Source: Bolinopsis microptera
Lineage: Eukaryota; Ctenophora; Tentaculata; Lobata; Bolinopsidae
DNA: 64,000 nt
Direction: 5' to 3'
Assembly (NCBI RefSeq): GCF_026151205.1
Contig: NC_087074.1
Location: forward strand, 4,898,001-4,962,000
In this document: in pieces, positions 1-64,000 of the stretch
Numbering within the stretch: the stretch's first letter is position 1
How the letters are laid out: each line of letters opens with the position of its first letter
Notes under the pieces: generated by a model
What the model was told of the DNA's origin: nothing
What the model saw: the letters and a program-made list of their open reading frames with translations, nothing else
The model's database searches: none
Program-made: the position numbers and the translations under genes

Positions 1-1078
1 CCCAATGACCTGCTTCTTCGTAATATATTTTTGTGTCGCTGATGATTGTCACAATGTTTTCCTAGTGAGCTAAAATTTGATATTGCATTATACATTTTAG
101 TAAATCTTGATAAAATTTGGAGAATAATTTTCATATCTATGTTTTTATCGTGTATAACGTATGGATAAAAATTCTAACCATGTTTTAATTTCCGTCGGCG
201 GTTTAACCTTATGGAGTAAATTTAATGTAATTAATATAATTCAATTGGCAATTCATGCTACTCTTTGAACGATCAAAAGTAAATTTATCGTCTAGTTAAT
301 GAATTTAACTATAGTTATGGTTTAATAAATTGAAGACTGGTAATTAATGATTATGTTTAACTCAAATAAGTCACTCGACAGGTTTTGTCTTCATTTATTC
401 TTGCTTGTTGATGATCAGCAATTAAGATTTGTTAAAATTAGAAACTTAAGTCATGTAGACGAATTCGAGAACTTATCAGCTCTAGGCACAAGTCCGTGAA
501 ATTGGATTTTACATTGATCAATAAATTAGAAAGATATGCAGAGAAGCTAATTAGTATTTCACTGTTTAAAAGTCCCATGAGTACTACATACTTACAGATT
601 GGTATATATTACAGTGTAGATCAGCGCACTTTTAGAAAAACGTGACAGTAAAGCACATGTAAGGATTAAGATATTTCAGCACTAAACATGTGCCCAGAAC
701 ACTGCCTATAATGAAGACTGGAGACCCAAATAAGCCGGATTTTACCATCCAAATAACTTAACTTTAAAAAATAAAACTCTGAGTTCACTGTCACAGTTTT
801 AGTTGTGCTGAACGCTTCTCGACTTCAATAATAACAGTTTTCTGGGCAGTCTGCACTGATCAGACGAGCCTAACCGTGACTAGTGCAACACGATACGGAA
901 CAGTTATAATAACCTGCAAAACTAGCGTCCCTTACTCGATAATCTACTAATCTACATAGTTCATACCCCAGCTAACGCGCTACATAGCCCAGTTAACGCG
1001 TTTAAATACTCTTCTCCTTCTCAAAAACCTCCAGTGAAAGCATTTCTTATTGACAAACATCAAACATGAGACTCTAAT

Positions 1079-1752
1079 TAGTCAGTGTAATAAGCGCCAA
1101 GCGCGAGCACAGAACTTTTTTTCTCCGATTTCGATAAATTTGGTACCAAAAGTTGTCTAAAAATGTGAATAAAATAAATCCACCGTGTAGCAATTTTCGG
1201 AAGAAATGCTACACGGCGCTTGTTCGCCGCGCGTGCTTTTTTCGCGCAAATTTTTAGTTTTTGGCCTATAACTTTCACATTTTAAATTATTATCACCATA
1301 GTTATTATGGTATCGTAATCAGCTCATCGAGACGAAACTTTTAGTACTAATATTTTAAGATTTAAAGGAATTTTTTTTCCAAAAGTTTTTAATCTGAACA
1401 CAAGGGTCCCCCCTTGTGTAAAATTTTGAACAAATTTTCGAAAAATTTGGTGCTTTAAATATTATAATTTTGGTACCAAAAGTTGCGTCTGATTAAGCTC
1501 ATTACGATTCTGTAAGAATTATTTCAAAATATTCAATATTTTAGGAGTTATAGGCATTTTAAGCAATAAATTAACCATTTTTCGTCCACAGTACACTTTT
1601 ACAATGCACAGGAGGCCCACATACATCTCAACGAATCGTGCTACACGGTGAATTTTCATTATTCACAGTTAAAGGCAACTTTTGGTACCAAATTTATCAA
1701 AATCAGAGACAAAAAATTCTGTGCCAACTCATGGCGCTTATTACATAGACTA
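1079..1752. mobile_element. 674-bp inverted-repeat element upstream of the myosin gene
   Basis: The first about 115 bp (TAGTCAGTGTAATAAGCGCC... TTTGGTACCAAAAGTTG... CACCGTGTAGCA) recurs as the reverse complement at the other end (1640-1752). The middle has more TTTGGTACCAAAAGT copies but no coding frame. The structure is that of a non-autonomous DNA transposon. A diverged piece of the same family lies at 34970-35180. Confidence 0.65.
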
Positions 1753-3674
1753 AATTCGGGTTTAGAATATTGAAATGTCAAAATTTCTGAGTGTATTACG
1801 TAAGAATAGCGTAATTGCTCAACGAACAGCATGAATGTCCACCACGTAGAGTTTACCTCGCGAGCGGGCTGCGTGATGCATAATACCTCTGACTCTCTGA
1901 AGATGAGTTACAGTTGGGATCCCACGCTCACTGGGTCCTCTTGTCTCCAGTCCTAATCATCTTGTCAACCTTTCGACGACGAATTAGCAAACCATGAAGT
2001 ATTACACTGCTCAGCCCGGGCCAGGCCCTGTGAAGCAAACCGACATATTTTATACTACTAAATTACAGGGATGTTTTAAGTGCTTCCCTTCTAATTTGCA
2101 ACTTTGCGCAGATTGAGCTCCCCAACGTCACGTGCCATTCCTCCCTCCAATCCCTGAGCTCTGGCCGCCATGTTGCGTTGTTATAAAAATCAGTCACTCC
2201 GGAGATTTATTAGTTGTCATTGCGCGCCTCATCCGCGAATACGTTAACACTTAACTATATTTAAGTTGTCTGACAGGGCGTGAGTGGGAAAGTGTCCTCT
2301 CACCACAGCTTGTAAAATTGTGGCTCCAGCTGTCACACTGCTCTGTTCGATGTGATAAACTGCTCGGTGGGATGTGACATATCACTCCAAATAAGTGCTC
2401 TCTAATGGTTTAATTTCGATATCGCTTTTCAATTTCAATTGAAGCTACTTGCGATATCTGTATCAGACTACTCGAGATATTTAGACTGCATTTTTTAATT
2501 AGAGCAGAAAATAAGAAGCACTGTAAATCTATAAATTATTACCCTACAAGTTGATCCTGACATTTAGGCTTCCCTAGGACCTCTAATCATTTTTGTTTTA
2601 ACTTAATTTTAGAAATGTAAGTTTACTTTTCAATATGTTACCTCTATCTTTATTAAACTGCGCATAATACTGCATGGTATAAAGTATGTCCTGTTTTTGT
2701 TGTTGTTGTTTAATCTTACAGTGATCGAATAGCCGACATAGTATTACATTTTTCCAACAAAAAACGAAGTTACGGTAGTCAGACAGTTTGGGTCAATTTT
2801 GGTGAGATTATTAAGATTTTCAGACCCAATACTTTAAAATAAGCGCGGTTCTCATCTACTCCATCCTCATTTATGAGATCGCTTCTCCAACTTTTAATAT
2901 TTGTGGGAATGTTCACAGCTCAATAAGAAACTGTTGTTTAAAACACAGCGTGGGAAACACATTGAGCATTTTTATCATACCGCCCTGATCCTGCGGGTAA
3001 ATAACCAGCCCTCTTTTATAATGGTTTATCCTTCTAGTCCCAAATCAGTGAATAAGCTATTTTGGCGTCTCATGTCCATGTTTATATTGTAACCAGCAAA
3101 GTGCTAAATAGTGACAAGTTATTTGCTTACTTATTTAAATCAATTAAAACATGATTTATCGGTGGATGATTAAGCATCTCAACATGGTTTTCATTAAATT
3201 TTTAGCCGTTGATGATAGGGAACTGTTTTTGATCCGCGGCGAACGGAGATATGATTAGAGGTGACAGGAGTTTTCTTTAACACGCGACATATAATTTGGT
3301 GGATTCGTGTAGTGTTATAGAGATTCATGATTTGATAGTTCTTTCATTCAAATTTCTGATTGTTTCTGAATAGACTCAGTGAAGACAGATTCTAATGGAA
3401 ATAAATAGCTGAATAACGTATCGACATTTTTACGTAATACTCATATTTTCAAATTATTTGTGATATTATAGTGTTTTTAAAAACTCTTTTTAAATATGAA
3501 AGAACGTGACAAATAGTTACCAATCGAAAAAACGTGACAAATAGTTACCAATTATGCTGAGGCAAGGACCAAACGAATACGCAATTTATTTTTGGTAACA
3601 TTATTTCATCAAAAATGAATTGGCTCATTGATACGTATTTTACATTTTAATAACCAAACATTTATTCAGGAACC
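1753..3674. other. Non-coding sequence upstream of exon 1a, nothing recognised
   Basis: There is no convincing exon, RNA gene or transposon here. The only local structure is a 22-bp direct repeat, AACGTGACAAATAGTTACCAAT, at about 3503 and 3531, 150 bp before exon 1a. The first 1,078 bp of the window are likewise without recognisable content. Confidence 0.5.
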
Positions 3675-3720
3675 ATGGCGGAAGAACCCGAACCCGAAAT
3701 CGACTATTCAGCATGGAAGG
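3675..3720 (+). CDS. Candidate alternative first coding exon 1a of the myosin gene
   Basis: Reads MAEEPEPEIDYSAWK plus one base, then a GTATGT donor at 3721. The phase (1 base left over) matches the acceptor at 10227, so splicing would give a glycine and then NMAATWEDS. This is the longest and most acidic of the four possible N-termini (protein about 1,948 aa). It sits 6.5 kb upstream of exon 2 and lacks the promoter block found before the other three. Just before the ATG is an acceptor-like TTTATTCAG, so it may be the second exon of a transcript starting further upstream. It could instead belong to an unrelated gene; only the phase and donor argue for myosin. Confidence 0.45.
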
Positions 3721-4041
3721 GTATGTACACGTTGTTGCTGAATAAATATTAACAATTATGTTTATCATGCTGATCATACCTTTCATGTCATAAATTGAAT
3801 GATCAGCATGATGAATTAAAATAATCATTGGTTAACATTTAAGTGTCATGTTTATTCTTTTTAATCAAATTTTAACTCTCCAAAAAATAAACATTTATAA
3901 TCTTTTTCGACTTTAGCATCAGCGTGAGCATAATTTTTTATAAGCATATTTGACTTACAAAAATCCATATTTGATCATATTTCATGTATCGGCCTGAAAA
4001 ATTAATATTTATAGACAACCACAACCACAAGAAATTAATTT

Positions 4042-4145
4042 TAACCAGTAGTAACCAGTAGTAACCAATAGTAACCAATAGTAACCAATAGTAACCAGTA
4101 GTAACCAGTAGTAACCAGTAGTAACCAGTAGTAACCAGTAGTAAC
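4042..4145 (+). repeat. 10-bp minisatellite (GTAACCAGTA)n in myosin intron 1
   Basis: About ten units of TAACCAGTAG with a few TAACCAATAG variants, between first exons 1a and 1b. The apparent open frames on the minus strand are an effect of the repeat. Confidence 0.95.
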
Positions 4146-4259
4146 TGATTTTTTTTGTAAAACTTGGTTTCGAGATAGCAGTTGTCCGACAAACTAGGAC
4201 CGGTGACCGAACTTTTGAGGGGGTCCTGGACCCCAACCGCCAAACGGTGCCCGCGGGAC

Positions 4260-4870
4260 AGCCACGCCTATATTTGGTCCAAATTAGGCCCAATTTAACC
4301 AAATACCCTGAACATGCCCAGAAACCATATTTTAGGTGCTCTACTTGTAGCTAGTGGTCCCCTGAAGTCGTAATGAATTTTCATCAAGATTGGACAAAAA
4401 ATGACTGAGTTATGAGCCAAAAAGCATATGACCATATTTAAGCATACGCACCAAATTTAATCAATTTTGGCCCATAAATTGGCCAAATATCAATATTTTT
4501 TAATGAAACCAACTTTATATGAAAGGTAAGTCTATACTACACATTATCTATGATTATCAGCTCAGTATCTACCTAACTGTGGATTCTGTGTTCAAATAAT
4601 CGCAAAAAATGAACAAAATCGCCCATATCTCAGTTCGCAATATTTGCGAAACTGATTTCGCTCAAAACAATAGAACTCAATAGGGTTTCAAATATGGTCA
4701 TATGGTTTTTGGCTCATAACTCAGTCATTTTTTGTCCAATCTTGATGAAAATTCATATACGAGTTCAGGGGACCACTAGCTACAAGTAAAGCACCTAAAA
4801 TCTGGTTTCTGGGCATGTTCAGGGTATTTGGCTAAATTGGGCCTAATTTGGACCAAATATGGGCGTGGCT
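4260..4870. mobile_element. 611-bp foldback element with about 180-bp inverted arms
   Basis: The left arm (4260-4440) starts AGCCACGCC and runs through TGGTCCAAATTAGGCCC and AGTGGTCCCCTGAAGTC. The right arm (4692-4870) is its near-perfect reverse complement and ends GGCGTGGCT. The middle 250 bp is unrelated A/T-rich sequence with no coding capacity. This is the structure of a non-autonomous foldback or MITE-type DNA transposon. It lies between alternative first exons 1a and 1b. Confidence 0.75.
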
Positions 4871-6350
4871 CGTTTTTTCATATTACTTTACTAATTATTC
4901 CCCAATAAGATGTCAGTTTCAACTTGATTCTACAGACCTGAATACATATAATTCATAAACTAGACAAATTAATCAATTAAGTTGTTAATTAATATAATTG
5001 CTTAGAAAAAATAGCGTCCAAAACGCTAACTAACTACACAAATATTTACTTTAGATAATTCAAAGGCCGAATATTTATTAATTACACGGATTGAGACGTT
5101 GGATAACCGGTATTTAGTTCCACAGTGTCCTTAATTATTCTGCGTAAGCAAAATATTTGGACAAGGAATTTTACATGGATAGTTTAAAGCTAGCCTAGTA
5201 GTTTACATTCTTCTCTCACAATAAAACAATCTTTAAAAGAACAATGATGAAATAATACAGTTTTTTAATTCGAAAAACTACCTAAATAAGAATGTTGGAT
5301 TGCAGACGTCCGCAGGATCTGAAAAGCCACTGCTGTACTGATATCTTCCTCCAACCCAAAGTAAAACTAAAACTATGTTGAAACATTATTAAAATCGTTT
5401 CCATCCTGTGGTTCAGAGGAGAGACGTACTTCTTTCTGTACTGCAGGATGGAAAAAAGAACTCATAAAACAAACTTTAAGAGAGCAAACTTCAATAAAAC
5501 AAACTTCAATTTTACAAACTTCAGTACAGCAACAAACTTTCAATTTTACAAACTTTCAATTTCACAGCAATCAATACGTCATACAGGCCCTATATTTTCC
5601 ATTTTATGCTTGGACCAGATATACCTATTGAAGAAGAATGAGCACCAGACAGTAAGCATGTGACTAGATAGAGATTTCAAAAGATAACTAAACGGTTTGC
5701 TAAGTTTCTGAGGATCACATAATGACATTACCAGCTTGTAAGAAAGGAACAAAGCTGATTGTTGATCGGTTTTTGAGGATAATGTTTTTATATGACATTT
5801 ATATTTATATGTTCGTACAGTCAGGAAAATTAGTGTGATTAAAAACAGCGCAGTTATTGTCACTTGAAAGCTAGTAACCATAGTGATAGGCACTTGGTTG
5901 ATCTAAGAAATTGCTATTTTTGGGAGTGAAAATTTATTTGCATGCACCGTTTACAAATGTTAGAGTAATTGCAAGTATTTTAATTACTTCAAGACAACTT
6001 TTGCTCTGCGATAAATTTAACATCGCTAGAAACTTGTCAGCAACCAGCTGAGAAATCACTACCAATCGGACTGCAAACAGCAGTCACCTGCCACATAGTT
6101 TATGGTGCTTCACTATTCCACCAGAACTACTTTACTAAACTTCAACATGGGCTGTTTCAACAAAATTATTCCGCTCCTGACCTACCTACCTACCTCTAAT
6201 AACTACCAAGCAAGTTCGTACAACTACCGATAGAGCTCTAATGACTACCAAGCTAGCTCTATTGGCTAACAAATTATCATAGACCCACTCAAAAGAGCAA
6301 AACTGTCAATTAGTCTAACGACAGAATGACAGATATAAGGAACTTGGCTA

Positions 6351-6392
6351 CCAAGCCAGCCCATTATTTTATTTACCTTTTTGGTTGCGAGT
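6351..6392 (+). promoter_or_regulatory. Core promoter block of myosin exon 1b
   Basis: The block runs CCAAGCCAGC, then a T/A-rich TATA-like ATTATTTTATTTACC, then a TTTTTGGTTGCGAGT element. The same order and nearly the same sequence precede exons 1c and 1d. The T/A stretch lies about 25 bp before GTTGCGAGT, the spacing of a TATA-like box to a start site. The start at or near GCGAGT is inferred; it would leave a 5' leader of about 30 nt. Confidence 0.6.
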
Positions 6393-6421
6393 GAACTTTT
6401 CAGCTACTGGCATCAACCAAC

Positions 6422-6437
6422 ATGTCTCAGGCAAAAA
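6422..6437 (+). CDS. Alternative first coding exon 1b of the myosin gene
   Basis: Encodes MSQAK plus one base, followed by a consensus GTAAGT donor at 6438. Splicing to 10227 in phase gives [15 protein letters not shown] and a 1,938-residue protein. About 30 bp upstream ends a promoter block (6351-6392) almost identical to those before exons 1c and 1d. A 10-bp minisatellite starts 70 bp downstream of the donor. Confidence 0.7.
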
Positions 6438-6508
6438 GTAAGTAAATGTGACTGATGTTACCATATCTCACTCTTTATGTTATTTCCCTATCCTCTGCCA
6501 CCCGCAAC

Positions 6509-6953
6509 TGCAACCAGTAGCAACCAGTAGCAACCAGTAGTAACCAGTATCAACCAGTAGTAACCAGTAGCAACCAGTATCAACCAGTAGTAACCAATAG
6601 TAACCAGTAGCAACCAGTAGCAACCAGTAGCAACCAGTATCAACCAGTAGTAACCAGTATCAACCAGTAGCAACCAGTAGCAACCAGTAGCAACCAGTAT
6701 CAACCAGTAGTAACCAGTAGCAATCAGTATCAACCAGTAGTAACCAATAATAACCAGTAGCAACCAGTAGCAACCAGTAGCAACCAGTAGTAACCAGTAG
6801 CAACCAGTAGTAACCAGTAGCAACCAGTATCAACCAGTATTAACCAATAATAACCAGTAGCAACCAGTAGCAACCAGTATCAACCAGTAGCAACCAGTAG
6901 CAACCAGTAGTAACCAGTAGCAACCAGTAGCAACCAGTAGCAGCCAGTAGTAA
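6509..6953 (+). repeat. 10-bp minisatellite (CAACCAGTAG)n, about 44 units
   Basis: Units alternate among CAACCAGTAG, TAACCAGTAG and CAACCAGTAT, starting 70 bp after the exon 1b donor. It belongs to the same family as the arrays at 4042 and 7675. Confidence 0.95.
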
Positions 6954-7199
6954 TCTGAAGAATCAATAAAATGAAAGGCTTCATGTCAGAAATATATCTC
7001 CACTTCGGTGATGCTGTTTTAAATGATATTACGCTAGGCGTTAGCTTGCAGATAAATTAACACTTAATAACTTGAAAGGTACAAGCAGATTATTTTCAAT
7101 TAAAATGGGGGCTAAAACCTCGTTTACTAGTTACACGCCCATCAAATTAACTAAAAGACCTAACCCTAATTATAAATTTAACAAAACCGAGCCTACTCA

Positions 7200-7240
7200 C
7201 CAAACAAGCCCATTATTTTATTTACCTTTTTTGTTGCGAG
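7200..7240 (+). promoter_or_regulatory. Core promoter block of myosin exon 1c
   Basis: Second copy of the block: CCAAACAAGCCCATT, TTTTATTTACC, then TTTTTTGTTGCGAGT. Its match to the blocks before 1b and 1d is far better than that of the surrounding intron, which points to selection or recent duplication. Transcription start at GCGAGT is inferred. Confidence 0.6.
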
Positions 7241-7258
7241 TTCTAATCATAAACCAAG

Positions 7259-7283
7259 ATGTCTGCTGCGGAGGAGAAGAAAA
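7259..7283 (+). CDS. Alternative first coding exon 1c of the myosin gene
   Basis: Encodes MSAAEEKK plus one base, then a GTAAGT donor at 7284. It joins exon 2 in phase to give MSAAEEKKSNMAATW and a 1,941-residue protein. The shared promoter block (7200-7240) ends 18 bp before the ATG. The intron sequence after the donor, to about 7425, resembles that after exon 1d (9637-9805), so 1c and 1d are segmental duplicates. Confidence 0.7.
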
Positions 7284-7620
7284 GTAAGTAGAACTAACCA
7301 TTTCAACTCTTGGTCAGCTGTTTGTTCAAATGTACACCTATTTCTACATGTCTAAGTCTATTCCCTGGTATTATTATTACTGTTTGCAAATTGTCCTGCA
7401 TAGCGTCAGCAGGTGATTTATACAGGGTGTGCTACAGAAAATGTGATTTTTGAGAAATAATAAAAACATTTATGAAGGAACAGTTGCTAAAATATTTTCT
7501 CCACAACGTCTCAATATGTATGGAATTTGTGCATACCAAGTTTCAAGTCCCTATCCCTACTTAATTTTTCACAAATTGCTGTCATGTTATCAGCCCCTCA
7601 CCTCAGAATATGTTAAGATA

Positions 7621-7800
7621 TGGAACTAAGATAAGTTTTGAAATCTGCCGTAAACTTAAGAAGAGTACATAAGAGTAGTAACCAATAGTAACCAGTAGTA
7701 ACCAGTAGTAACCAGTAGTAACCAGTAGTAACCAGTAGTAACCAGTAGTAACCAGTAGTAGAACTAAGATAAATTTTGAAATCTGCCGTAAACTTAGGAA
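7621..7800 (+). repeat. 10-bp minisatellite flanked by 40-bp direct repeats
   Basis: Positions 7675-7760 are about nine TAACCAGTAG units. On both sides lies the same sequence of about 40 bp (GGAACTAAGATAAGTTTTG... at 7621-7661 and its close copy at 7760-7800). The array is thus nested in a duplicated flank, as if it expanded by unequal exchange or a template switch. Confidence 0.85.
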
Positions 7801-8634
7801 CATGATATTTGCCCTATCAGTCGCTGAAATGCACCAAGGTCCGGTTTATGAGCTGAGTTAGGAAGGGTAACATTAAACTAGAGATTCAGACACTTTTCCA
7901 ACATTTTGGGTTAGTCTCATTTCCAAGCTTCAGTCTCAATATTTCACCAATAAAAAAGTCTATGGTAACTTCTGAAAATGTACCGATAGCAGCAAGCATT
8001 TTTAATGAGTTGGTCTAACGAAGTTAAAGCCATGGGCTGGACAGAAAGGAAGCGGGCTACTGGAAAACATCCTGTGTCACTGTTTTCACTGCACACTGCA
8101 CGCAACATCCTATTGGTTAATTAATATTGCTGTAATGTGCGGCTGCTGATTGGCTTCTCTGGAGTGAAGGGGCTCGGTTATTGGTTATTCCTCTTTATTG
8201 GGTTATTGTGTAGGTTATCGTGTTATGCGGAGTGGGTTTATCAAGTCAGCAGCAAAGGCTGGTAGCACAGTTCCTTGTTGTTGCGGTGGAGTGAGTTGCT
8301 GTACAAATCAGATGGAGCAACTCGCACTTTCTCTTATCTCTAGCTTTATTTTCTACTTTTTTGAACTATGTAGCACAGAATTATAATGACATTTAAATAA
8401 ATATAAATATCCTTGCTGAAAATGAGTTGCACCAAACCGATGATTATTACTAATTAAACCGATGATAATTACTAATTAATAATCTGTAAGTCATGTTAAA
8501 TTGTGAGACTCATTATAATAGATTAAAAATATTAATGTTATAGCACTTAAACATTCCCGGTCGAGGTTAAGGAATATCAAATGATGGAGTAGTTCGTTGT
8601 TTATTAGTCTCATGATTGAAATACTGATTAAATA

Positions 8635-8822
8635 CAATTTAACCGGAATGTTAAAGTACTGATAGTTGGATAATATGCGGTTGGGAGAGACAAGGACAAA
8701 TGAAACAAGACAAATGAAACAGCAATTTTAGCCTGAAGATGGCGTTGACGCCGAAAATTGGCCTTGTCTCTCTCAACCAGATATCATCCAACTATTAGTA
8801 CTTTAACATTCCGGTTAAATTG
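8635..8822. mobile_element. 188-bp hairpin MITE
   Basis: Arms of about 58 bp start CAATTTAACCGGAATG and end CATTCCGGTTAAATTG; both contain the AGTTGGAT and GAGAGAGACAAGG stretches in opposite orientation. There is no coding capacity. It lies in the intron between first exons 1c and 1d. A shorter relative is at 23117-23215. Confidence 0.7.
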
Positions 8823-9563
8823 TGAGACGCATGTCCAACTATAATGGAGTTAAAATATTATATTATTGCACTTTAACATTCCGGTCCAGTTTCAACTTTC
8901 TAGAGTTCTTAAGAAATCCCAGAATAGGCATAAAAATACCTCGTTGTTATATAACTTACCGTGAACACATGCCGCTCATATGGAACATATATTGTAACTG
9001 AACATTTAACAATTCTGCCGAAAAACATGAAGGTCGCCTTGAAGTGGGTGTTAAACGGAAAGCCAAGTGTTTGCAGCTTTCCTATTGGTCAATATATCAG
9101 TAAATCACGTGAGGTAGCAGAAAATCACGTGATCCCCATACTTGGAAGTAATTGTAAATAGGGCCGGTGATTGGGGGAGCCTGCACAGTTCAGGTTTAAA
9201 ACACGGCACTGTGTGCAGCCCGCAGGGCCGTGTCACCACCTTTCTGCAGAGAAGCCTTCCAACGGCCCACCTCAAGCCTTTGCTTCCACCACTACCAATC
9301 CTCCGATATCATCTTATTGTTCCTCCAACCTGCACTAACTCCTTTCTTTCTACCGCTAATTTACACTCCTCCAAAAAAGATCATCTGAACAAGCCATATT
9401 GGACATATTTGCCGGAAAGTGCGAATGAAACCGACTGTGTAGTGTGTCCAAATGTGTTAAAATAGGTCCTGCTGCAGCTTGGCTTAGACCGAACCAAACA
9501 ACGGGGTCTGAGCTGTCAACAGGACCCGGCCTTTCAACAGGTATTCTCAGCAAAGACCTGCTC

Positions 9564-9610
9564 ACCAAACCAGCACATTATTATTTTTTCTACCTTTTTG
9601 GTTGCGAGTG
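9564..9610 (+). promoter_or_regulatory. Core promoter block of myosin exon 1d
   Basis: Third copy: ACCAAACCAGCACATTATT, a T-rich stretch, then CTTTTTGGTTGCGAGTG, 14 bp before the exon 1d ATG. It differs from the 1b and 1c copies mainly by a few inserted bases in the T/A-rich part. Confidence 0.6.
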
Positions 9611-9623
9611 CCCACCAGTAGAC

Positions 9624-9636
9624 ATGTCCAAGGGAA
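9624..9636 (+). CDS. Alternative first coding exon 1d of the myosin gene (nearest to exon 2)
   Basis: Encodes MSKG plus one base, with a GTAAGT donor at 9637. It joins the 10227 acceptor in phase to give [14 protein letters not shown]. The shared promoter block ends 14 bp before the ATG. It is the closest first exon to exon 2 (590 bp intron), so I use it for the reference protein of 1,937 residues. Confidence 0.75.
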
Positions 9637-12600
9637 GTAAGTCAATCTAAACAATTCAACCTTATCTGACTTCTGAGTCAGATATTTGTTCAAATGTTTA
9701 CATCTTCTACCTGGCCAGGTCTATTCTTCGGCATGATTATCACTGTTTGCAAGCTGTCCTGCATATATAATGCGGTTGTCCGTACGTCAGCAAGTGATTT
9801 ATATGTTATCAGCTCGCCTCCTTCGACCTATGTTACCGATGAATATTGCGTGATTCATCTGACTTTCCGAGCGTTCTGCAATTATAGAAGTTTTAGTGAT
9901 GATTAGCATCTATATTATGACTCATTAATGAAATATTAAGATAAAAGAATTCAGCCTATATATAGAGCCTAGTGAGCTCTAATAACTGTCATTAGAAAAG
10001 TATGTGTTCTGAACAGCATATTGAAACCAAATCTTACAGAAGGTTTCCTGAATTATAATAAAGTTTTTAAAGGACTCAATCTGGGTACGGAACAGTCTCC
10101 TATTTAGTATAAAAACTCATCAGCATTAAAACTAGTCCCCAGTTAAATTCACCTCAAACCCCACTGCACCCACACATGTTTTATTAATCTAACAGCTCCT
10201 TTATAAATCTAACAGTTCCCCTTCAGGCAATATGGCCGCTACGTGGGAGGATTCCTGCAAGTACTTGTACGCTCCTACAAATAACAACAAGTCTAATGAC
10301 TTCGCCGGTAAGAAGATGGCCTGGCTTCCAGTGCCCGGTGATGATGGGTTCGCCAAGATCGAGATCTTGAAACAAGAAGGAGATGACTGCCAGATTAATC
10401 TGGTCGAAACCAACGAGGTGAGGATGGAAAAAAATATATACTGTCACGCTAGAGTTACAGTTTCTAAAATATTTAATATTATCACAATATTTTTGCAATG
10501 GGATAAGGACGGATATTTTAGAATATCAAAAAACAAGGTCTTGAAAGTTGAACTAGCTTTCAAAAAGTATAAAGCTGGAAAATATATTTAATATTCATTC
10601 TTGACAATTTTGTGGCGATGCAAGTGTTAGCATTGTTAAAACTCTTTTGAAATTCTTTCCGAATTGTCGATAATCTGGAAATTTTGACATTCTTCAATTT
10701 TCAATAAATAAAAGTTGGTAAGCTCATCAAAGTTTTTGTAGAAGCCTCAATCGAATCAATTATTCGAGATTTTTTACATTTCTCATATTCTAAAAATTCC
10801 CGATCGTTTAAACTTTAGAAATGGTAGAAAAATGCATTATCCCTAGATATGAGCCCTTGAGCCACTATAAACTTATAAAATGTTACTAATAAAACATTGT
10901 TTGAATTAGCCATATAATCGGGTTCAGTGCAAGAAGGTTTTTTCTTTTACAGCTTAGGATGCAAGTGGCTACTTAGTAGACGGACAATACCTCAACATCT
11001 TTAAATTAAATAAACTATTGCTGACCTTGAACGGCCAAAATATCAACCATGAGACTTATTTTATCGCTAAAAATCAATAACAGTTGAATTAGCTTTTTAG
11101 GGATTTGACCGCCTTGAGAGACACACAGAAAACCTATTATATAGTTCATAAAACCTATCTAACTTATATCACATATTAGTATATAATAATCACTCCTACT
11201 GAGTCTGATGAGTGAGCTAGGAGGTCGCCGAACATCTCATTTTAAAGCTGTATCGATTTTCTATACGCATACCAAAAACGAACTTTTATGGGTGTTTCTA
11301 ATGACCATACAGGGTCAATACTCGAAAAGAGCAGATTTGTTAACTTATACGACGGTGCACCAATTTCCTGCTCTATCCTGCAAATTGAAGGCGCAAATTT
11401 TTAAGAGCTCTTGGAGTTCGACGCCTATCGGAATAATAAGGGTACTTATTAAACATCTGTACTCGCGAAGAATCTAAAATCAGGAAATAGACTAAGTCAT
11501 GGATGTGGTACAAATTTGAATATGGGTGAAGTTTTAATAAGATATGCCTTAGAACTAAATTATGGTACACAAATTTTCACTTTCGTCGATGATATAAAAA
11601 ATGATATAAAATGAACAATGACTATGAGCTTGGCTGAATCTCAGTTAATTGCTTTCAATTCGACTACATTGCAGAATATAACTAAGAATATAATTAAATA
11701 AAGGAAAAATTTGCAAAACAAATATGTTTAAGTCCGAAAAAATGTTACTTAATCTCTTCTCAGAAACGAACAGTCAACATCAACGAATGCCAGCCAATGA
11801 ACCCCCCTAAGTTCGAGATGTGTACCGACATGTCTCTGCTCTCTTACCTTAACGAAGGAGGTCTCCTCCATAACTTGAAGACCAGATACGTCGCCAACGT
11901 TATCTACGTGAGTAAAAACAACCTCTTATTGATATTAATAATTGGCAGGATAAGGAAAGCATAAATTGATCGACTTTACAAACCATGATTTGAGTTAACT
12001 GTGACTTATTGTTGAGTATCTTGACTCCGTTTATTTTTCAGACCTACTCCGGTCTTTTCTGTGTCGCTATTAATCCCTACAAGAGATTCCCTATCTACAC
12101 AGGTACGTTCTGCTCTACAATCACAATTACCTTGTTGCTAGCAATATTCCCAGTATTCATTGCGCATCATTGAGCTGTAAGGCATTTTTAAACCTTACCT
12201 ATACAGCACTCAGTAAAGATTGTTTAATTTCACCATGAAACTATTCCAGATGTTGTGATCGCCAACTACCGTGGAAAGAAGAGGACAGAATTACCTCCTC
12301 ACGTCTTCGCTATTGCTGATAACGCTTACTCTGACATGATCCAAAACAGGGAGAACCAGTCTATCCTGATTACTGGTGAATCTGGTGCGGGAAAAACCGA
12401 GAACACGAAGAAAGTCATCCAGTACTTCGCCAGTATTGGAGCCACTGCCGGTAGTGGTGCAGATAAGAAAATGTCCGTCGAAGACCAAGTTGTCATGTGT
12501 AACCCCGTCCTTGAGGCCTACGGTAACGCCAAGACCGTCCGAAACGACAACTCTTCTCGATTCGGTAAATTCATCCGAGTTCATTTCGGTAAGGACGCCA

Positions 12601-15600
12601 AGTTGGCTTCTGCCGATATCGAGTACTACCTGCTGGAGAAGGCTCGTCTCACCTACCAGAACCCCGAGGAGAGGAACTTCCATATCTTCTACCAGATCTT
12701 CAAGGGTACCCCCAAGGAGATGCAGACCTCAGATTTCCTGCTCGACCCTGACGCAAACAACTACAAGTTCCTGAGTAACGGAGATGTACAAGTACCTTCA
12801 CAGGACGACGTTGAATTGTGGAAGGAGAACGAAGAGGCTATGGTTATCCTCAACTTCTCCGACGACGAGAAATACTCCATCCTCAAACTCATGTCCGCTT
12901 GTCTACTCTTCGGAAACATCAACCTGAAGCAGAACAAGAGAGATGAAGGTTGCGAGATCGAGAATCCAGTCTACATTGAGAAGACAGCTGCTCTTCTTCA
13001 GATCCCCGCTGCTGAATTCCAGAAGTGCCTCCTCAAACCCAGAGTAAAGGTCGGATCCGAGATGGTCACCAAGTCCCAGAACTCTGACCAGGTACTTTTT
13101 AAGCACTTTCCTTGTGTTTAAATTGCGATAAAACTAAAGTAATGATAGATTCAAAAACAAACAACTTTTCTAAACTAAGATTACAGTAGAAATACAAAGT
13201 GAATCAAGTACGTTGCGAAACAGGAGATTTGTAAATAACGATGGTTTCCCGTAGGTCTACTTCGCCACCAAGGCTCTGTGTAAGGCTATCTTCGAGCGTG
13301 TGTTCAAGTGGCTGATCGGAAAGTGTAACAAGGCTCTTGATACCAAGAAACCTAGGGCTAACTTCTGTGGTGTCTTGGATATTGCTGGATTCGAGATCTT
13401 CGACGTAAGTCTTTCCACATCATTTAATTTCCTCTTTAATGTTTTTTTAAAGTCGTAATTGACAACTAATTGTCTTCTTGTAGTGTTCAGAAGGGAGATC
13501 TTTAACTTATCTTGTGACGTTATGTCAAGGTTATGGTGGCTGACACTCTGTATTATTTCAGTTCAACACATTCGAGCAGCTGTGTATTAACTTGACCAAC
13601 GAGAGACTGCAACAGTTCTTCAACCACCACATGTTCATCCTAGAACAGGAAGAATACAAGAAGGAAGGAATTGTCTGGGCGTTCATTGACTTCGGTCTTG
13701 ATCTGGAACGTTCCATTGAACTTATGGAGAAGCCAATGGGAATCTTGCCTATGTTGGACGAGGAATGCATGTTCCCCAAGGCTACTGATACTACCTACAA
13801 GGATAAGGTCATCCAGCAGCATAACAAGAAGCACCCCAAGTTCTCTACACCATCCATGAAGTCCATCAAGGGAATGGATAACCCACCCCATTTCAACATT
13901 CACCATTACGCTGGTGGGTTTTTTACAATACAAATTTTGTTGACAATAAAAATTTACTGAATCATTGTTTTATGATTCAACCATATCTCCATCAAACAAA
14001 TACCGTTTTTGTAAAACTAGGTGTATTTAGATGTTGAAGTATCTAGTTATGGTTTATAGAGCTGATACTGTATTTATATAGGTGTTGTCGGATACAATGT
14101 TGGTGATTGGTTGACCAAGAACTCCGATCCTCTCAACGACAATTGTCTGGATCTGTTCAGAAAATCTGCTATGCCCTTCATGGCTGAGCTGTTCGCTGAT
14201 TGTGTCCCCGCTGGACCCAAGGAAAGGAAGAAGACTTTCCAGACCATGGCTATGATGCACAGGAAGTCCCTGAACTCTCTCATGGGAATGTTGCACGCAA
14301 CCTACCCTCATTTCATCCGTTGTCTGGTACCTAACGAGACCAAGACCCCCGGAAAGGTCCAGGCTGAACTTATCCTTCATCAGCTCAGGTTTGTTCTAAA
14401 TCAATCAGCTTCATTATCTTCATAAGTCATAACTTTTAATTCTTGCTCTCAAAAGATGCATATTCATTGAACGGTCATGAGGTGCTCCCAATAAGACTTA
14501 ACATGTACAAATAACATTGGCAAATAAATGTAATTTCTAACTCTCAAAATGTCCAGGTGTAATGGTGTACTTGAAGGTATCCGTATTGTGCGAGCTGGAT
14601 TCCCCAACAGGATTGCCTACGCCGACTTCGTACAGCGATACAAGATCCTGGCCGCTTCAGCCATCCCTGCTGGCTTCATCGAGGCCAAAGAAGCTTCTCA
14701 GCTTATCATCACTCATCTTGAGCTTACTGATGACCAAGCTAAATTCGGAAACACCAAGGTCTTCTTCCGTTGTGGAATCTTGGGAACACTTGAGGATTTG
14801 CGTGACGAGAAGATTACCCAGATCCTCTCTGCCTTCCAGGCTCTCACTCGTGGATGGATTGCCCGCAAGATCTACATGAAGCTTATGGAACAGAGGTAAA
14901 ACTATTACCTGTTGCCTAACCTACTGGACATCTTTGAAGTATTCGGTTTTGATCAGGGTAGAAAAGCCCAAATACGAATGGCAATTATTCTCCACATAAA
15001 AATATTCGGGAAATAAATCATAGTTTTTTTCAGGGTTGGAGTTGTTGTCCTGCAGAGAAACATCCGTCAGCACTTCGTCCTGAGGAACTGGCCGTGGTGG
15101 AAGCTTTTCACCAAGGTCAAACCTCTCCTGTCCATCGCCCGTCAGGAGGACGAGATCAGAGAAAAGGAGGAAGAGATGAAGAAAGCCATGGAAGAAGCCG
15201 CTGCAACGGCCGTTGCCAAGAAGGAGCTCGAAGAGAAATACGAGAAACTTGAGGAAGAGAGGATGAAGATCCAAGCTGAGCTGGAGAGGGAGAGACAGGC
15301 AGCTATTGATGCTGAGGAACTTGTCTTCAAACTTGAAGGTAAACAGCAGGAGCTCGAGGAGGAGAACAATGAGTTGATCGACAGAATTGAAGAGGAAGAG
15401 GAGAACAACTTCATCGTCGCTGAGAACAAAAGGGGAGTTGAAGCTGAACTCATCGGAGTCCAGGAAGAACTTGCCGCTCTTGGCGAAAGGCTCAAGAACG
15501 TGAGTATTAGTTTTTTTATGTTGTTCGACAAAAATTATTTCGTTTGTTAACAAAACAACACAAAAAAGATTTTTACATCTTTGGCTCGTGCAAATCTTTT

Positions 15601-18600
15601 ATTGGGGTTTCCATTTATTTTTTGTTCCATTGCTGAGGCGTTCGTTTATGACAAATTCAGGCAAAATGTTTATCCTAATGTTCCATTCATTTACAATGTA
15701 TCACTTCAGGCCGGTGGTGATATCCAAGGAAAAGAAGCAGAACTCAAGGAAAAAAATAACGAGTTGACCAGAAAGGACGAGGAGATCAAGAAACTGGATA
15801 CCAAATTGAATGATACCGCAAAGAGACTGGGAGAGACCGAATCCATGCTGGCCGCTGCTCAAGAAAAGGGACAGCGTCTTGACAAGGAGAAGAAGAGGGT
15901 TGAGAGTGAGCTTGGTGAGACCAAAGTGGATCTTGACAAGGAAAAGAGAGCCAAGGCAGATCTGGACAAGAACCTGAGAAAGAAGGACGCTGAATGCAAG
16001 GAAGTCCTCGGACAACTTGATGACATGACTAGACAGAAGACCGAGTCTGAGGACACCGTCAGAAGGAAGGAAAGTGAAATTTCCGGCCTACAGGCAGCTG
16101 TTGAAGCTGAACAGAACAACGTTACTAAATGCCAGAGACAGATTAAAGATCTCGGACAGAAGAACAAGGACATTGAGGATGAGCTCGATAACGAGCGAAA
16201 CCAGAAGCAGAGACTTGAAAAGGCAAGAAACGAGCTTGAAGCCCAGATCGCCGCCTACGAGGATCAGATTGAGGAGGCCGGTGGAGCTAACAGCGCTGCC
16301 GTAAGTTATTTCACTTTTAATCAAACATGTCATCATAGTTTATTGAATTTTAAACAGAACGTCCAGTTTGATGCAAATATGCACATGTATAATTAGCGAG
16401 GATGGCACCTTGACTCCCAAGACTCCGAGAGTAAGGAGTGTAACAAACATTGAGGAATGTTACTGCAAAGGAAACCTTTTTTAAGTAACTCTTGATTCGC
16501 TGAGTCAGTACTTGATAAATGTTATCGTGTCTAGTGTTACCGGTCTCTGATTTTTCTTTTTTCTCTCATACATCCTGACATTCCGCAGCTGACATGGTCA
16601 GCAACAAACAATTGGTGAATTGAATAATATAATTCGTTATTCGATCTTCCTTTTTTTGCTTATTTCGCACAAACCCGATGATTTTTAAAACCAGTAAAAA
16701 CTTGTGCATGTTTAGTCTGACGTAATCCTATGGTGCCAAATTTTTGTAAATTTAGAATCATTTGCTAAATTAGTTTTCCCTCTTCATGTGCAACACAAGG
16801 GAATATTTTGTCCGCACTTTAACTCATCTCTTTCTCTTTGCAGACTGAGTTGTGCCGACGTCGTGAGGAGGAGATCGCCAAGCTCCGAAAGGATAAGGAA
16901 GGAGCTGAACTCGAAGCTCAAGAACAGGCCGATGCTTCTAAGAGGAAGTTCAACGATGTCCAGAACCAACTTGAGGATGCTGAGGATATGCTCAGGAAAT
17001 ACAAAGCCAAGTGAGAAATATATGAATAAAATTATTACGTCATTTCGTATAAGAATATATTTTGTACGAACACTTAGTTTCAATAATATAATGTTTGGTT
17101 CATTTGCGTCTTTCAAAATAATTTCTAAGATCTCCAAAGAATTATCATTTCATTTTAGTAACCCCTTAATTCAACTCAGGGCTGAAAAAGAAAAGAAGGC
17201 CTTCATGTCCGAAATGAATGACCTCAACGAGCAGGTCGACAACTTGGCCAAGGCCAAGGCCACCTCCGACAAGAACGCCGGTGGCCTTGACGCTTCTCTC
17301 GCAGAGGCCAACGCCCGTATTGCTGCACTCGAGGCCTCTCTTAGAGAGCTGACCGACAAGTACAACAAGCTGGTCAAGGACAACAACGCCACAGTCGGCA
17401 GACTGGAAGAGGCTGAGGCCAGAGAGGCCAACCTCGCCAAGCAGAAGAAGGTTCTCAGTGCCCAGATTGATGACCTGAAGAACCAGCTTGAGGACGAGAG
17501 CGCCCAGAAGAACCAGCTCATCAACCAGCTGCGTGCCGCCACTGCTGACCTTTCGGCCGCCAGAGACGACCTTGAGATTATCAACGCCGAGAAGAACGAT
17601 CTTGGCAGGAACCTAACTAACGCTCAGAACGAGATTCAGTCTTGGAAGAGCCGACTCGAGGCCGAAGCTCTGCCCAAGATCGATGGTAAGGACCATATTC
17701 TATATTGCCATATTCTGTTATATCAATATTATGCTAGTTTTATCTTCAGTTACTGTAGACTGTGTTATAAAAAAACTAATTTAAGGCGTAATTTTGCCTG
17801 TATTTTCCACTTTTTGCATCTATGGTTATATCGATGTAATTAGTACAGATGATAAACAGCAATATTTACAGAGCTTGAGGCTGAGAAGAGGAAACTCCTT
17901 GCCCGAATCCAGGAGGCTGAAGACCGAGCTGATGAGGCTATGTCAAAGTAAGTTAATTAAGTGAACAATTTCATACTTGTCCTACTTGAGAGTCCAGCTC
18001 GAAGTCACCAAATGTGCGGTATTTAAAAAGTGTGCAGTTTACATAGTGTCAAAAACCTTTTACAATACGTGAGAAATCCTGAATTTTTCACCTACATTTC
18101 CGTTCCATGCCAGACATGGCAAAGCAATAGCCCACCAGATTCTGAGATATAATATACACTAAAAATGCGAGCTGTGAGCTGGCTAACAACCGATGACAGT
18201 CATTGTCAACAACTGCCGACCTCCGTACACCCCATGTTTCCACTGCTCCCACCATTCCGAGAATATTTTTACCTTATATGGTCATGTCTCCTGTCCTGCA
18301 ATGTGTTGACGTTCAGGACCTTAAAGAGAAGCTTGTCCGGCGCCCGACTTAGAAAACTCGGGAAATACCATACAAAGTTTTAGTGACTGGTGGTTGGACT
18401 CAGAAAATAGAGACAGATTACTGTATTGAGTAAAAAAACAGCTATATCGGCTTCAGCTAGAAAAGACATAGAAGTTAGAACTGAATAGGGAACATCATAT
18501 TAATAGCATATGGAAATCATTCGGAAACTATTTGATCAAGGAGAAGTGTGTGAGCTCTGAGAGGATGATATTATGTTCACATAGTGCTACATACTGGTTA

Positions 18601-21600
18601 CATACTGGTTACATACTGGTTACATACTGGTTACTGACTGGTAACTGACTGGTAACTGACTGGTTACATACTGGCTACATACTGGTTACTGACTGGTAAC
18701 TGACTGGCTACATACTGGTTACTGACTGGTAACTGACTGGTAACATACTGGCTACATACTGGTTACTGACTGGTAACTGACTGGTTACATACTGGCTACA
18801 TACTGGTTACTGACTGGTAACTGACTGGTAACATACTGGTTAGATACTGGTAACATACTGGTTAGATACTGGTTACATACTGGCTACATACTGGTTACTG
18901 ACTGGTAACTGACTGGTTACATACTGGTTACATACTGGTTACACACATGCTGGTGTTATATCTTTATAAACTGACAATAACAAAGTTCTAACCAAACCCC
19001 GTACCCAGGTGCAACAACCTGGACAAGATGAGGACTCGTCTTATGCACGAACTCGAAGATTCTGGTGTTGAGCTAGAGAGGACTAGGTCTGAACTGGCCG
19101 CCCTTGACAAGAAGTGCAAGAAGATCGACATGATCGTCTTGGAATGGAAGAGCAAGTACGACTCTGCCAGCAGCCATGTCGAGTCTCTCACCATTGAACT
19201 CCAGAAATCCAACGTAAGTTTAACTATATCTTACTCCATATGGTTTCTAACATGCTCAGCTCTATAGATCACCGGAACATTTGTAGAATGTTTTCGGCTT
19301 ATATTTTAACACACGACATTGGGAAGAGAAATATATTTTTCTAAGCAAACTTACTTTTCAGACTAACGTCCTGAACATGAAATCCACATGTGAGGAGTAC
19401 ACCGTTACCATCGAGAACCATAGCCGATCTCTCAAGAAATACGAGGCTGACATCAGAGACTTGAACGCCGAGCTTGAGGGAGGACGCAACAGCCACGAGC
19501 TGGAGAAGATCCGCCGCAAACTCGAGGGAGAGAACGATGAGCTGAGACAGCACATTGACGAGCTCGAGATCCTTGTCTCCTCAAGCGAGAGCAAGTGCAC
19601 CAAGCTCACTCTGGAGATCGCCACCATCCGTAACTCATACGAGAGACAGCTGGCTGACGCTGATGAAGAGGGAGAGAAGGCCCGTAAGGGACTCCTCCGA
19701 CAGGTCGAACAGCTCAAGATGCAGCTCGAAGACCAAGAGAAGGCTAAGGCTGATATCCTCAAGGTGAAGAAGAACCTCGAGATTGAAGTTGGAAACCTCA
19801 ACGAGGACCTCGGAAACGCCGACAAGACCATTGCCGCTCTGAACGCCAACATTGGAAAGCACCAGAAGACCGTCCAGGAGATGACCATGGCTCTTGATGA
19901 GGCTCACCGTGCTCTCGATGACCACAAGACCGCCCTTGTCCGCTCAGACAAGCGATGCAGTGAACTGACTCACATTAAGGAGGAGCTCGAGGGCAACCTT
20001 GATGGAGCTGATCGTGCACGCCGAAACGCTGAGGGTGAGAAGTCCGAGATGGCAGCACACATTGCTGATCTTGAACGACAGATTGCCACTATCTCCAACC
20101 AGAAGAGGAAGGCTGAGGTTGATCTTGCTGGACTCCGAGAGTCTCTCGAAGAGTTCGAGTCTCAAGCTATGTCTGCTGAGGAGAAGGTGAAGAGACACGC
20201 TGATATGGTTTCTAAACTTCAGTCTGACCTTACCCGTGAGGCTGATGCTCGTGCTGGATTTGAACGTGTAAACGCCAAACTCAACAGTGACATCTTCAGC
20301 CTGAACGCAAGGATCGAGGAAGTAGAATCATCTGCTCGCTCTGCCGCCAAGAACAAGATCAGCCAGCTGGAGATCAAGATCAGACAGCTGGAGAACGACT
20401 GCTCTTCTGAGGCCAAGGCCCGAGGTGATGCTCAACATGCTCTGAAGAACCTTGACCGAGTTATCCGTGAGAAGGAATTCAACTCTGATGAGGACATGAA
20501 GACCATCCAGAGACTCCAGGGACAGATCGAGTTCCAGAACAACAAGATGAAGGCTCTCCGACGAACCATCGATGATGGCGTAAGTAAACTTTTCTAGTCT
20601 TTCTGCTTTTCCATCCCATCTGTAATTCAATATTATTCGGTACTTTACTGATATTTTCATAGGGCAAATTCTTCATCAAGGTTCCCGGTTATATATTGTT
20701 AATAGTATTAAAAAAACTAGCCCCACTAATCGAATACTCTTTACAGGAAGCTCAGATTGCTGTTATGCAGAACAAACTTCGCAAGGCTATCCATGACGTA
20801 GAAGAGGCTGAGGAGAGGTCCGCAATGTTGGAGACCCAGCTCGTCAGGGGTGGAAGATCTGGAGGTAGCTCCAGCACCCGCATCACTACTCGCCGTGTGG
20901 TAAGTTGATACGCTCACTGCTTTCACTTTCACTTTCACTTACAATTCAAATTTTAGTCTCATTTCTCCCCTTTCACGAAGTTTTTGTTTTTTGTAGCGCG
21001 CGACTACTTATATGAGCTATTATAGTATGCTACTGAAACTGCACTCCGATAATACTTCGTAGTTTTCAAGCTGCTGCAAGTAAAGCCTTCTAAAATACTC
21101 CTTTATAAATACTGCTATTTTGTGCAACGAATTTTTGCATAATACAGCTTCCCGGATTTCAACACCTCCCACAGCTTGCTGACAAGCGCTTTGACACTTG
21201 CAGGGCTTCCGAACCAGCTTACACCTCACGTAAACTTTCCGTCAGAGTCACGTGTCTTTTCACTGTAATCACGTGACTTTTCACTGTAATCACGTGACTT
21301 TTCACCGTGGTAGAATCGTTTTTTATAGGATAATGTCAGGTGGTGTTGCTTGCTGAGGAAGCAGGTCCGGAACAAACTGCTAATTACATCAGCCGTACAG
21401 TGGCCCTTTTTAATTACATGAGCCTATATATTAGTGTGCTTATTATGTTTCGGCAGGAAGACTTGCAAAATGTATAAAAATGAATCGCTGAGAGAATATT
21501 TCTCTATGCTGTTGTTATACGCATAATTGGAAATTTGGTTCAACTCTATCTCCAGTTCAACAATATACTTTATATACTCGGTAACCTTACAACTAGTACC

Positions 21601-23942: not shown

Positions 23943-25336
23943 TTAATTGTCCTTATTTTTCTTGTTTCCTTTCTTTTTCTTCTCTTTTTTTGTTACGGTC
24001 AAGTTGATAGGTTCAGAAATGAACGTTTTGCCATTAACCGTGACCTTGGCCCTGTAAGAATAGTAGTAGATAGAAGTCTCCAGTTCTAATCCGGTGATAA
24101 TTCTAACAAGGGTGCAGTTCAATCTATTCCAGTATTTCAATTGAAGCTAACTTAGTAACTTATTTGATAGAACTTGAAAACTTACACGTATGATCCACTG
24201 TTTTTAGGTTTCCTTTTCTTGCCAAACTCTTTGGTATAGATGCCATCCTTAACTTTACTTTTCTTGCACTTCGTCGCTTTCTGATTCTTGTAGAGACAAA
24301 CCGCTACTTTGACAGTCTGAAATAAATAAGTGCATTAAGATTCAGGTATAGTTAAGATGTAACTTTAGAGACAGATAAACTTATATTCTGTCTAACTCTA
24401 CCAGGATGTACTCAGAGGAGTTGTGTTAACAATTCTAATATTTTATTAAATGATAAACTTTGTACAAATCTTATATTTGACTATGCCAACATCCTATTTA
24501 ATGATGTATAGAAATCTTTATTATATTATTTATGTCACAGTAGTTGCAAAAATAATTATTGAAATAAAATTGTGATACAGGAATGAGCTGAAAGTACAGG
24601 GTGTCCCAAAAAGGCAACCAAGTTACTTCTGTTACTAACTCGCAGCTCAGATTTAACGACTTAAAACTTTTCAAGTCATGCAGTAGGATGCTCCAGAATC
24701 AGTGTTAACAATTTTAGGACAAAACTTTATCAGGAACCTTCTTATTTAGCAATAAACTTGTCTGCCATCAGATAGGGGGGGGGGGGGCGGGGGTGGGGGT
24801 TCATCCTGTAGTTAATTATATCACCATACCCCGATTGTAGAGACGACATCCCACCCTAGAACGCAAGCCGTCTTCTTGTCTCCCTGTTTACATGTAAGGT
24901 CTTCCGCTTGAGACGTGATGGTAACTTCGTTCTCAAGTACTCTTACTTGAATGTCCGCTGAATCCTCCGTACCCTGTCCTTTGGCGTGACATGTACACGT
25001 TCCTTTGTCAGACAGTTTAGCTGGCTTCAGTACCAGTTCGCTGAAAGCCTCTGAAATCAAAAAGTCAGCAATAAAACAAAATTTAATAAAACAAAATTGT
25101 ATTTTTTTTCTTTTATTATTTGTATTTGGTTTCATCCACTTATACCACAGTGATGGAATTTTAATAAGTTTCACATTTCTTTTAATGCAACCACAAAGTT
25201 AGCTACTGAGATTCAGAGCTACCTTTTGTTTAAAATGCTTACTTTTGTTTATGATCATCACGTTGCCTTTACCATTTTTCATTTTCTGTCCGTTACAAGT
25301 CCAGAACAACTCCGTCACTGTCTCCAGTTTATTACA
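23943..25336 (-). CDS. Copy A exons 19-22: Ig-like domain, beta-sandwich and lysine-rich C-terminus
   Basis: Exons 19-20 form an Ig-like unit ([14 protein letters not shown], then [13 protein letters not shown]). Exons 20-22 give a second beta-rich unit ([50 protein letters not shown]). The protein ends with a basic tail, [16 protein letters not shown]. Intron 18 (25337-26166) holds an RNase H fragment of a retroelement on the opposite strand. Confidence 0.82.
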
Positions 25337-63600: not shown

Positions 63601-64000
63601 TTTTTCTTTGAGCGGTAGAGTCACCTCGAATACTCCTTCAGATGTTTTCCCATCCTTCTCCACAACACACTTGAACTTTCCCTCTCTCCTGGCGTCCATT
63701 TTCTTGACAGTCAAGGTCAGACCATCGTCGGAAATGGAATACGCCCTCCTCGCATTGGAAAGATCGTTCATACCTGGGTCGAACTTGAACCACTTAACAT
63801 TGTCCTTGGTCACTTCCACACCGTTCAGTTTCACCCTACAACCCAGAGCTAAGGGTTCATCGACGACAGCATCAGGCTTAGGATTAACTGCCTCCACCCA
63901 GTCAGCAAGACATGTGGGACAACATTCTCCATCTTTCTCAACCTCGATCTCATCATCATCACATACGCGGACATGACAGTTCTTGTCTTCACACTCTTCC
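60608..64000 (-). CDS. Secreted D-domain/Ig protein, copy C (3' part; 5' end outside the window)
   Basis: Exons visible: 63538->64000 (VWC and Ig), 63300-63393, 62878-63095, 61479-61618, 60608-60692. They match exons 18-22 of A and B with the same phases. The Ig part reads [18 protein letters not shown] with a two-residue insertion before NGVEV. The last exon ends PITLTVTPKGKKVE and stops, so the long lysine tail of A and B is missing. Exon 19 (VITELWWTCNGKRLKAG) is closer to B than to A. All visible reading frames are open, so it is probably functional. Confidence 0.85.
61667..62639. mobile_element. 973-bp mariner-like non-autonomous element in copy C intron 20
   Basis: Starts CAGGGTGGGCCATAAGTCAG and ends with the reverse complement of CAGGGTGGGCCAAAATTCAG. 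The inverted repeats run about 33 bp and a TA lies on each side (61665-61666 and 62640-62641). That is a Tc1/mariner target duplication. There is no transposase frame inside. Confidence 0.8.

Follow-up and report, generated by a model that had tools for sequence, protein, structure and literature searches.

Here we describe the 5' region of a myosin II heavy chain gene of the ctenophore Bolinopsis microptera, in which several very short candidate first exons precede one shared exon that is predicted to encode the start of the SH3-like N-domain. The stretch of DNA analysed, referred to throughout as the window, comprises 64,000 nucleotides (nt) of contig NC_087074.1 (C3:4898001-4962000), and positions without a prefix are counted from its first nucleotide. 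Genome searches covered 264.65 Mb in 232 contigs. A ctenophore origin of this genome is borne out by its glutamate receptors: an open reading frame at L008 matches the Mnemiopsis receptor ML032222a at an expectation value of 9.7e-121, against 3.7e-71 for the second-best PDB molecule, L006 has the same best match, and 32 receptor-domain matches occur in the genome; for another receptor, L007, the best 60 of 275 matches include no ctenophore protein. The gene occupies positions 3675-20908 of the + strand and combines a striated-type motor with a tail; its parts, together with the sequence elements on which our interpretation rests, are collected in Table 1.

Table 1. Features of the myosin heavy chain locus, in window coordinates
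Feature	Position	Strand	Remarks
Strong 3' splice acceptor, CAAACATTTATTCAG then GAACCATGG	3655..3669	+	score 11.4, 5 nt before the ATG at 3675; cis or spliced-leader
Exon A, candidate alternative 5' coding exon, MAEEPEPEIDYSAWK + 1 base	3675..3720	+	frame and phase; weak donor, 6.4
Block copy 1, putative core promoter, TTATTTTATTTA plus ACCTTTTTGGTTGCGAGT	6347..6393	+	core at 6364-6392
Exon B, candidate alternative first exon, MSQAK + 1 base	6422..6437	+	donor 8.4; possible acceptor 18 nt before ATG
Block copy 2	7196..7242	+	core at 7213-7241, 1 mismatch
Exon C, candidate alternative first exon, MSAAEEKK + 1 base	7259..7283	+	best AG before ATG 0.2
Block copy 3	9561..9610	+	core at 9581-9609, 2 mismatches
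Exon D, candidate alternative first exon, MSKG + 1 base	9624..9636	+	donor 9.7; best AG before ATG -1.1
Shared exon, putative start of SH3-like N-domain, acceptor CAG then GCAATATGG	10227..10417	+	acceptor score 11.5
Remaining exons: motor, neck, coiled-coil tail, to stop	11764..20908	+	Myosin_head 1.5e-103; exon model made by hand

The class of the gene is indicated by its motor exon, whose best PDB matches are striated-muscle heavy chains (1dfl and 1kk7, both of which we take to be scallop myosin, and their relatives; expectation value (E) 3e-92), with smooth and non-muscle myosins matching less well (approximately 1e-79 to 6e-82); both figures refer to the best 60 of 150 matches at E<=1e-20. 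A long coiled-coil tail is likewise evident from matches to Myosin_tail_1 (3.2e-46 on a 436-residue stretch and 9.4e-12 on exon 15710-16300). The hand-made exon model keeps the frame open from each start up to 17685 and runs out of frame beyond this point, since at least one short tail exon in the interval 17686-19008 has yet to be placed. Neither the 249 loose candidate models obtained for that interval nor four direct joins with poor donors were convincing. The motor exon matches 23 places in the genome, is identical only in the window and reaches at most 73% identity elsewhere, making this exon single-copy. The gene's nearest paralogue, located at C3:9150610 on the same chromosome, encodes one motor segment in two successive exons that differ in loop length (C3:9154012 and C3:9154252, within L002-L004, C3:9153653-9154482), the 3' exon having the longer loop 1. 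A mutually exclusive exon pair for this segment (cluster-0) has been described for Mnemiopsis Mhc2 (PMC3912159). In the window gene the cluster-0 segment has no such pair and lies within a single exon (12250-13091), and the gene therefore fits Mhc1 (MHCIIb1) and not Mhc2. In Pleurobrachia, MHCIIb1, which corresponds to Mhc1, is reported as the form exclusive to muscle (PMC3502136), and by sequence the window gene fits this ctenophore muscle-type myosin II heavy chain, MHCIIb1/Mhc1.

A preliminary description of this DNA proposed that exons A to D provide the one heavy chain gene with four alternative N-termini, and the frame arithmetic behind that proposal holds up well: each mini-exon begins with ATG, is followed by GT, has a length of 1 mod 3 and continues in frame into the shared exon at 10227, so that proteins beginning MAEEPEPEIDYSAWKG-, MSQAKS-, MSAAEEKKS- and MSKGS- are predicted across the join. 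The accompanying statement that all four have good donors has to be amended for exon A, whose donor (AGG/GTATGT) scores 6.4, lower than any of the 14 shared-exon donors (6.9-12.4, the same sites on which the scoring matrix was trained); exons B, C and D score 8.4, 8.4 and 9.7, respectively. These three exons have identical GTAAGT donors, and their lengths (16, 25 and 13 nt) are all 1 mod 3 despite indels, while a purine at -3 is found at all four upstream ATGs. Taken alone, the combination of ATG, donor and phase says little and lies near chance, since at a permissive donor threshold the region 1-10226 contains six phase-1 ATG mini-exons on the + strand and five on the - strand. Under stricter donor patterns, mini-exons with a GTRNGT donor in any context number seven on the + strand of this region and three on the - strand, where the remainder of the window predicts 3.3 for each strand; a GTRAGT donor with a purine at -3 picks out three sites on the + strand, exactly those of exons B, C and D, and two on the - strand, where 0.36 are expected.

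Exons B, C and D proved to be tandem copies of one unit, a duplication that the preliminary description had missed along with the block common to all three copies. This block of approximately 45 bp lies ahead of each exon with an aligned identity of 42/46 between copies 1 and 2, 43/47 between copies 1 and 3, and 41/47 for the third pair. Its 29-nt core, which ends 29, 17 and 14 nt ahead of the ATGs of exons B, C and D, respectively, occurs at only three places in the genome at <=3 mismatches and not at all in the reversed-pattern control. The likeness of units C and D extends into the intron over approximately 210 bp (7192-7402 in C; 68.6% over 226 columns, E 1e-19 in the self-comparison), and a genome search with the 271-bp unit D, too insensitive to list unit B, matched only D itself and unit C. 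Exon A, by comparison, matched none of the other three units when the window was compared with itself. Common block and duplication together rule out chance as the whole explanation for exons B, C and D, and a chance origin was not rejected for exon A. The block is unlikely to stem from a repeat family or transposon, having just three genomic occurrences at <=3 mismatches, and haplotype or assembly duplicates are ruled out for units C and D, which are 69% alike.

Acceptor strength bears on which of these exons begin a transcript and which receive a splice. Scores were taken from a matrix of the 14 shared-exon acceptors, which range from 6.7 to 14.4 when scored on the sites used for training. 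The best AGs ahead of the ATGs of exons C and D reach 0.2 and -1.1, neither of them usable, and both exons therefore look transcript-initial on sequence. Two acceptor-less exons are thus predicted to join one shared exon in frame, as expected where at least two alternative first exons feed a single gene, and exon A does not follow this pattern. Having no acceptors, exons C and D are unlikely to be serial cassette exons, and the GAG at the end of the block is ruled out as a splice acceptor by scores of -3.5, 0.2 and -3.5. For exon A the picture is reversed: the acceptor ahead of it outscores every other AG among the 623 examined within 1-10226 (a set that leaves out the shared acceptor), and its position 5 nt before the ATG makes it probable that the exon receives a splice. 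Exon A is thus more likely to be internal, or to accept a spliced leader, than to be promoter-proximal, and exon B is ambiguous as to whether it is a first exon. For comparison, in the Mhc2 paralogue an acceptor scoring 7.5 lies 8 nt before the probable ATG inside the SH3 exon, with an in-frame ATG further upstream at L011:8476; in the gene on C6 the start lies 12 nt past an acceptor scoring 5.4 and 43 nt past one scoring 9.4; and at the third Myosin_N locus (C3:11071k) no acceptor was found ahead of the start, the best AG scoring 0.5.

The shared exon itself contains an in-frame ATG at 10232, 5 nt past the shared acceptor and with A at -3 and G at +4, which the preliminary description had also overlooked and which is a possible fifth start. 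Counted from this codon, residues 21-61 pair weakly (E 0.04), in the expected register, with residues 25-64 of a muscle-type myosin heavy chain in the PDB; PDB myosin alignments of the exon span E 0.04-0.8, a designed protein scoring slightly better at 0.031. Myosin_N reaches 13.7 bits on the first shared exon alone, against a cut-off of 27, with the domain continuing in the next exon, and the shared exon is not among the three genome places listed for this family. On the register of the weak PDB alignment, a protein started at 10232 would lack approximately four N-terminal residues relative to the aligned muscle-type myosin, so that exons A to D would extend an N-terminus already close to ordinary length. 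The 5-16 extra residues may affect the SH3-like region. A 20-bp tandem duplication (TTTATAAATCTAACAG..) at 10180-10219, just before the shared acceptor, creates two branch-site-like CTAAC motifs.

We consider tandemly duplicated promoter and first-exon units in a gene for a muscle myosin heavy chain to be the best account of this locus, with a probability of roughly 57%. The promoter-linked alternative N-termini of the preliminary description thus survive as the best reading for exons B, C and D, which are tandem duplicates with a common promoter-like block and of which C and D have no usable acceptor, and are less well founded for exon A, which resembles none of the others, has a poor donor and lies behind a strong acceptor. 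The 5' region would contain three tandem promoter-plus-first-exon units (6347-6437, 7196-7283 and 9561-9636), in each of which the block of approximately 45 bp would set the transcription start at or just past its own end, leaving a very short 5' leader and a first exon of four to eight codons, followed by a single, predicted splice that uses the shared acceptor at 10226. The choice of promoter by the cell would then yield myosins differing only in a Met-Ser start of five to nine residues before the ordinary N-terminus. Exon A would be a further, unrelated 5' coding exon, to which splicing probably attaches either an unseen exon farther upstream or a spliced leader; the ATG at 10232 might serve as a start through trans-splicing or leaky scanning. 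The sequence itself shows the exons, their frames, the duplication, the rarity of the block and the missing acceptors ahead of exons C and D; a promoter role for the block, the use of every exon, differences in usage between tissues and a functional effect of the N-terminus are inferred.

Several observations weigh against this account and bear on the explanations that compete with it. Between units B and D conservation is higher in the block than in the intron that follows (43/47 against 38/55, Fisher P 0.005), but this is the only one of the three pairs to reach P<0.05, the others giving P 0.09 and 0.21, and plain common descent could therefore explain the likeness of the blocks. Retention of both ATG and donor under neutral divergence has a 4-14% chance per pair, the strict scan for GTRAGT with a purine at -3 also returned two matches on the - strand, and a possible acceptor scoring 7.3 lies ahead of the ATG of exon B. 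Nor did the block emerge as a promoter element of other muscle genes, its 16-nt core giving five genome matches at <=1 mismatch (two of them off-locus) against five in the control; as it was not found ahead of any other gene, it carries no independent mark of a promoter role. The case for selection on the tandem units, as read from their sequence, is suggestive, not decisive. One tandem unit, perhaps the nearest (9624), might be the only one that works, the other two being duplicates in decay whose appearance is still intact, and exon A a chance ATG next to a cryptic acceptor. Such decay would suit the divergence of units C and D to approximately 69% identity, the neutral retention figure just given, the occurrence of similar mini-exons on both strands and the position of the weakest donor at exon A; however, ATG, donor, block and phase are kept in all three units and indels shift exon length by multiples of three, and we hold this explanation to be unlikely.

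Two further explanations were weighed. Spliced-leader trans-splicing is common in ctenophores: a leader is present on 56% of Hormiphora Iso-Seq reads, a lower bound, and its motif has also been found in Mnemiopsis (PMC8527503). A search of the present genome for the 3' end of the leader followed by GT gave 23 matches at <=1 mismatch against five in the control; all four exact matches lie at C13:12.81-12.89 Mb, and the two inspected (L014 and L015) resemble leader genes, ending ACAAATTAATTTGAG followed by GT. These leader-like sequences, together with the ctenophore precedent, make it likely that trans-splicing operates in this animal. The starts of the window gene could then be alternative spliced-leader acceptor exons of a transcript from a single distal promoter, received mainly at the junctions 3669/3670 and 10226/10227, where strong acceptors stand 5 nt before the ATGs of exon A and the shared exon, much as the acceptor of the Mhc2 paralogue stands 8 nt before its probable ATG. 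As an explanation of the whole locus this is decidedly unlikely, in that a good acceptor would be expected before every 5' start and the scores run from 11.4 (3675), 11.5 (10232) and 7.3 (6422) to 0.2 (7259) and -1.1 (9624), the GAG at the block end scoring poorly as a substitute; within the window, leader-like sequence is not found beyond chance (three one-mismatch matches, 8.6 expected). Trans-splicing would explain exon A and allow a start at 10232 and would not fit exons C and D, making it a serious rival for the first two only. Very short leaders can favour leaky scanning, and the first exons might on that ground be alternative 5' leaders that serve expression control only, with most protein made from the ATG at 10232 and N-termini hardly differing. 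The context of that ATG, the N-terminus of near-ordinary length that it would give on the weak PDB alignment and the probable start of the Mhc2 paralogue in the equivalent exon, its upstream in-frame ATG notwithstanding, speak for such a role. Against it, every one of the four upstream ATGs has a purine at -3 and is in frame, the exon lengths preserving that frame, and we regard it as very unlikely.

The 5' region also contains repeats of other kinds. A 10-bp minisatellite of the TAACCAGTAG type occurs at 4042-4145, 6510-6950 and 7674-7760, that is, in the intron behind exons A, B and C, respectively, and none was reported by the repeat scan between 9636 and the shared exon. Inverted repeats at 1078-1753 (69% identity), 4260-4870 (96%) and 8634-8823 (74%) resemble foldback or miniature inverted-repeat transposable elements. 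Beyond the myosin gene, the - strand carries a tandem array of large genes with VWD, C8, VWC and immunoglobulin domains at approximately 24000-35000, 41000-51000 and 62800-64000, as judged from two open reading frames tested; by eye, the list of open reading frames suggests two or more copies that resemble one another, plus an incomplete third. A reverse-transcriptase fragment at 59247-59453 matches RVT_1 at E 4.5e-4, under the curated cut-off.

Several known systems resemble parts of the arrangement proposed here. In vertebrate MYO1C, which gives rise to myosin-1C isoforms including nuclear myosin I, N-terminal extensions alter motor output (PMC7948490; PMC3623870), with reported changes in power output and adenosine diphosphate release (PMC7948490). 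MYO1C is, however, a single-headed class I myosin whose abstracts mention no tandem promoter units, whereas the window gene is a muscle class II myosin with 5-16 predicted residues at stake. Closer in phylogeny, the sister ctenophore gene Mhc2/MHCIIb2 of Mnemiopsis also varies one heavy chain through duplicated exons, those of cluster-0 (PMC3912159); these are internal loop-1 exons picked by splicing, in contrast to the duplicated exons of the window gene, which are 5' and each accompanied by a block of their own. Arthropod and molluscan muscle Mhc genes obtain several muscle myosin products per gene from mutually exclusive exons, and catchin, with its unique N-terminal exon, and myosin rod protein, with an alternative start, are described from the same context (PMC3912159). 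The latter two are tail-only proteins, and the motor variants of arthropods and molluscs arise from internal exons and not from alternative N-termini of the full-length heavy chain. The zipper gene of Drosophila (non-muscle myosin II) offers a class II precedent, in which an alternative 5' exon adds an N-terminal extension to the heavy chain; it differs in being a non-muscle gene with a single alternative extension, and is not known to have a tandem array of similar first exons. Among the open-access titles and abstract openings listed, no report of alternative first exons in a ctenophore muscle myosin heavy chain was found.

Animals are described as varying their muscle myosin either through additional gene copies or through internal exons that are mutually exclusive (PMC3912159), and it has been proposed that muscle arose independently in ctenophores (PMC3502136). 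Any surprise at the present locus is limited because alternative first exons as such are common. Tentatively, and with a good deal of doubt, we suggest that a cassette of promoter and micro-first-exon may have been duplicated in tandem in a muscle-only ctenophore myosin gene, such that a single choice, that of the promoter, would fix both muscle type and N-terminus; trans-splicing onto exon A and the shared exon would bring the number of N-termini to as many as five. If the array of duplicated promoters and first exons is what its sequence suggests, it would constitute a further route to muscle myosin diversity.

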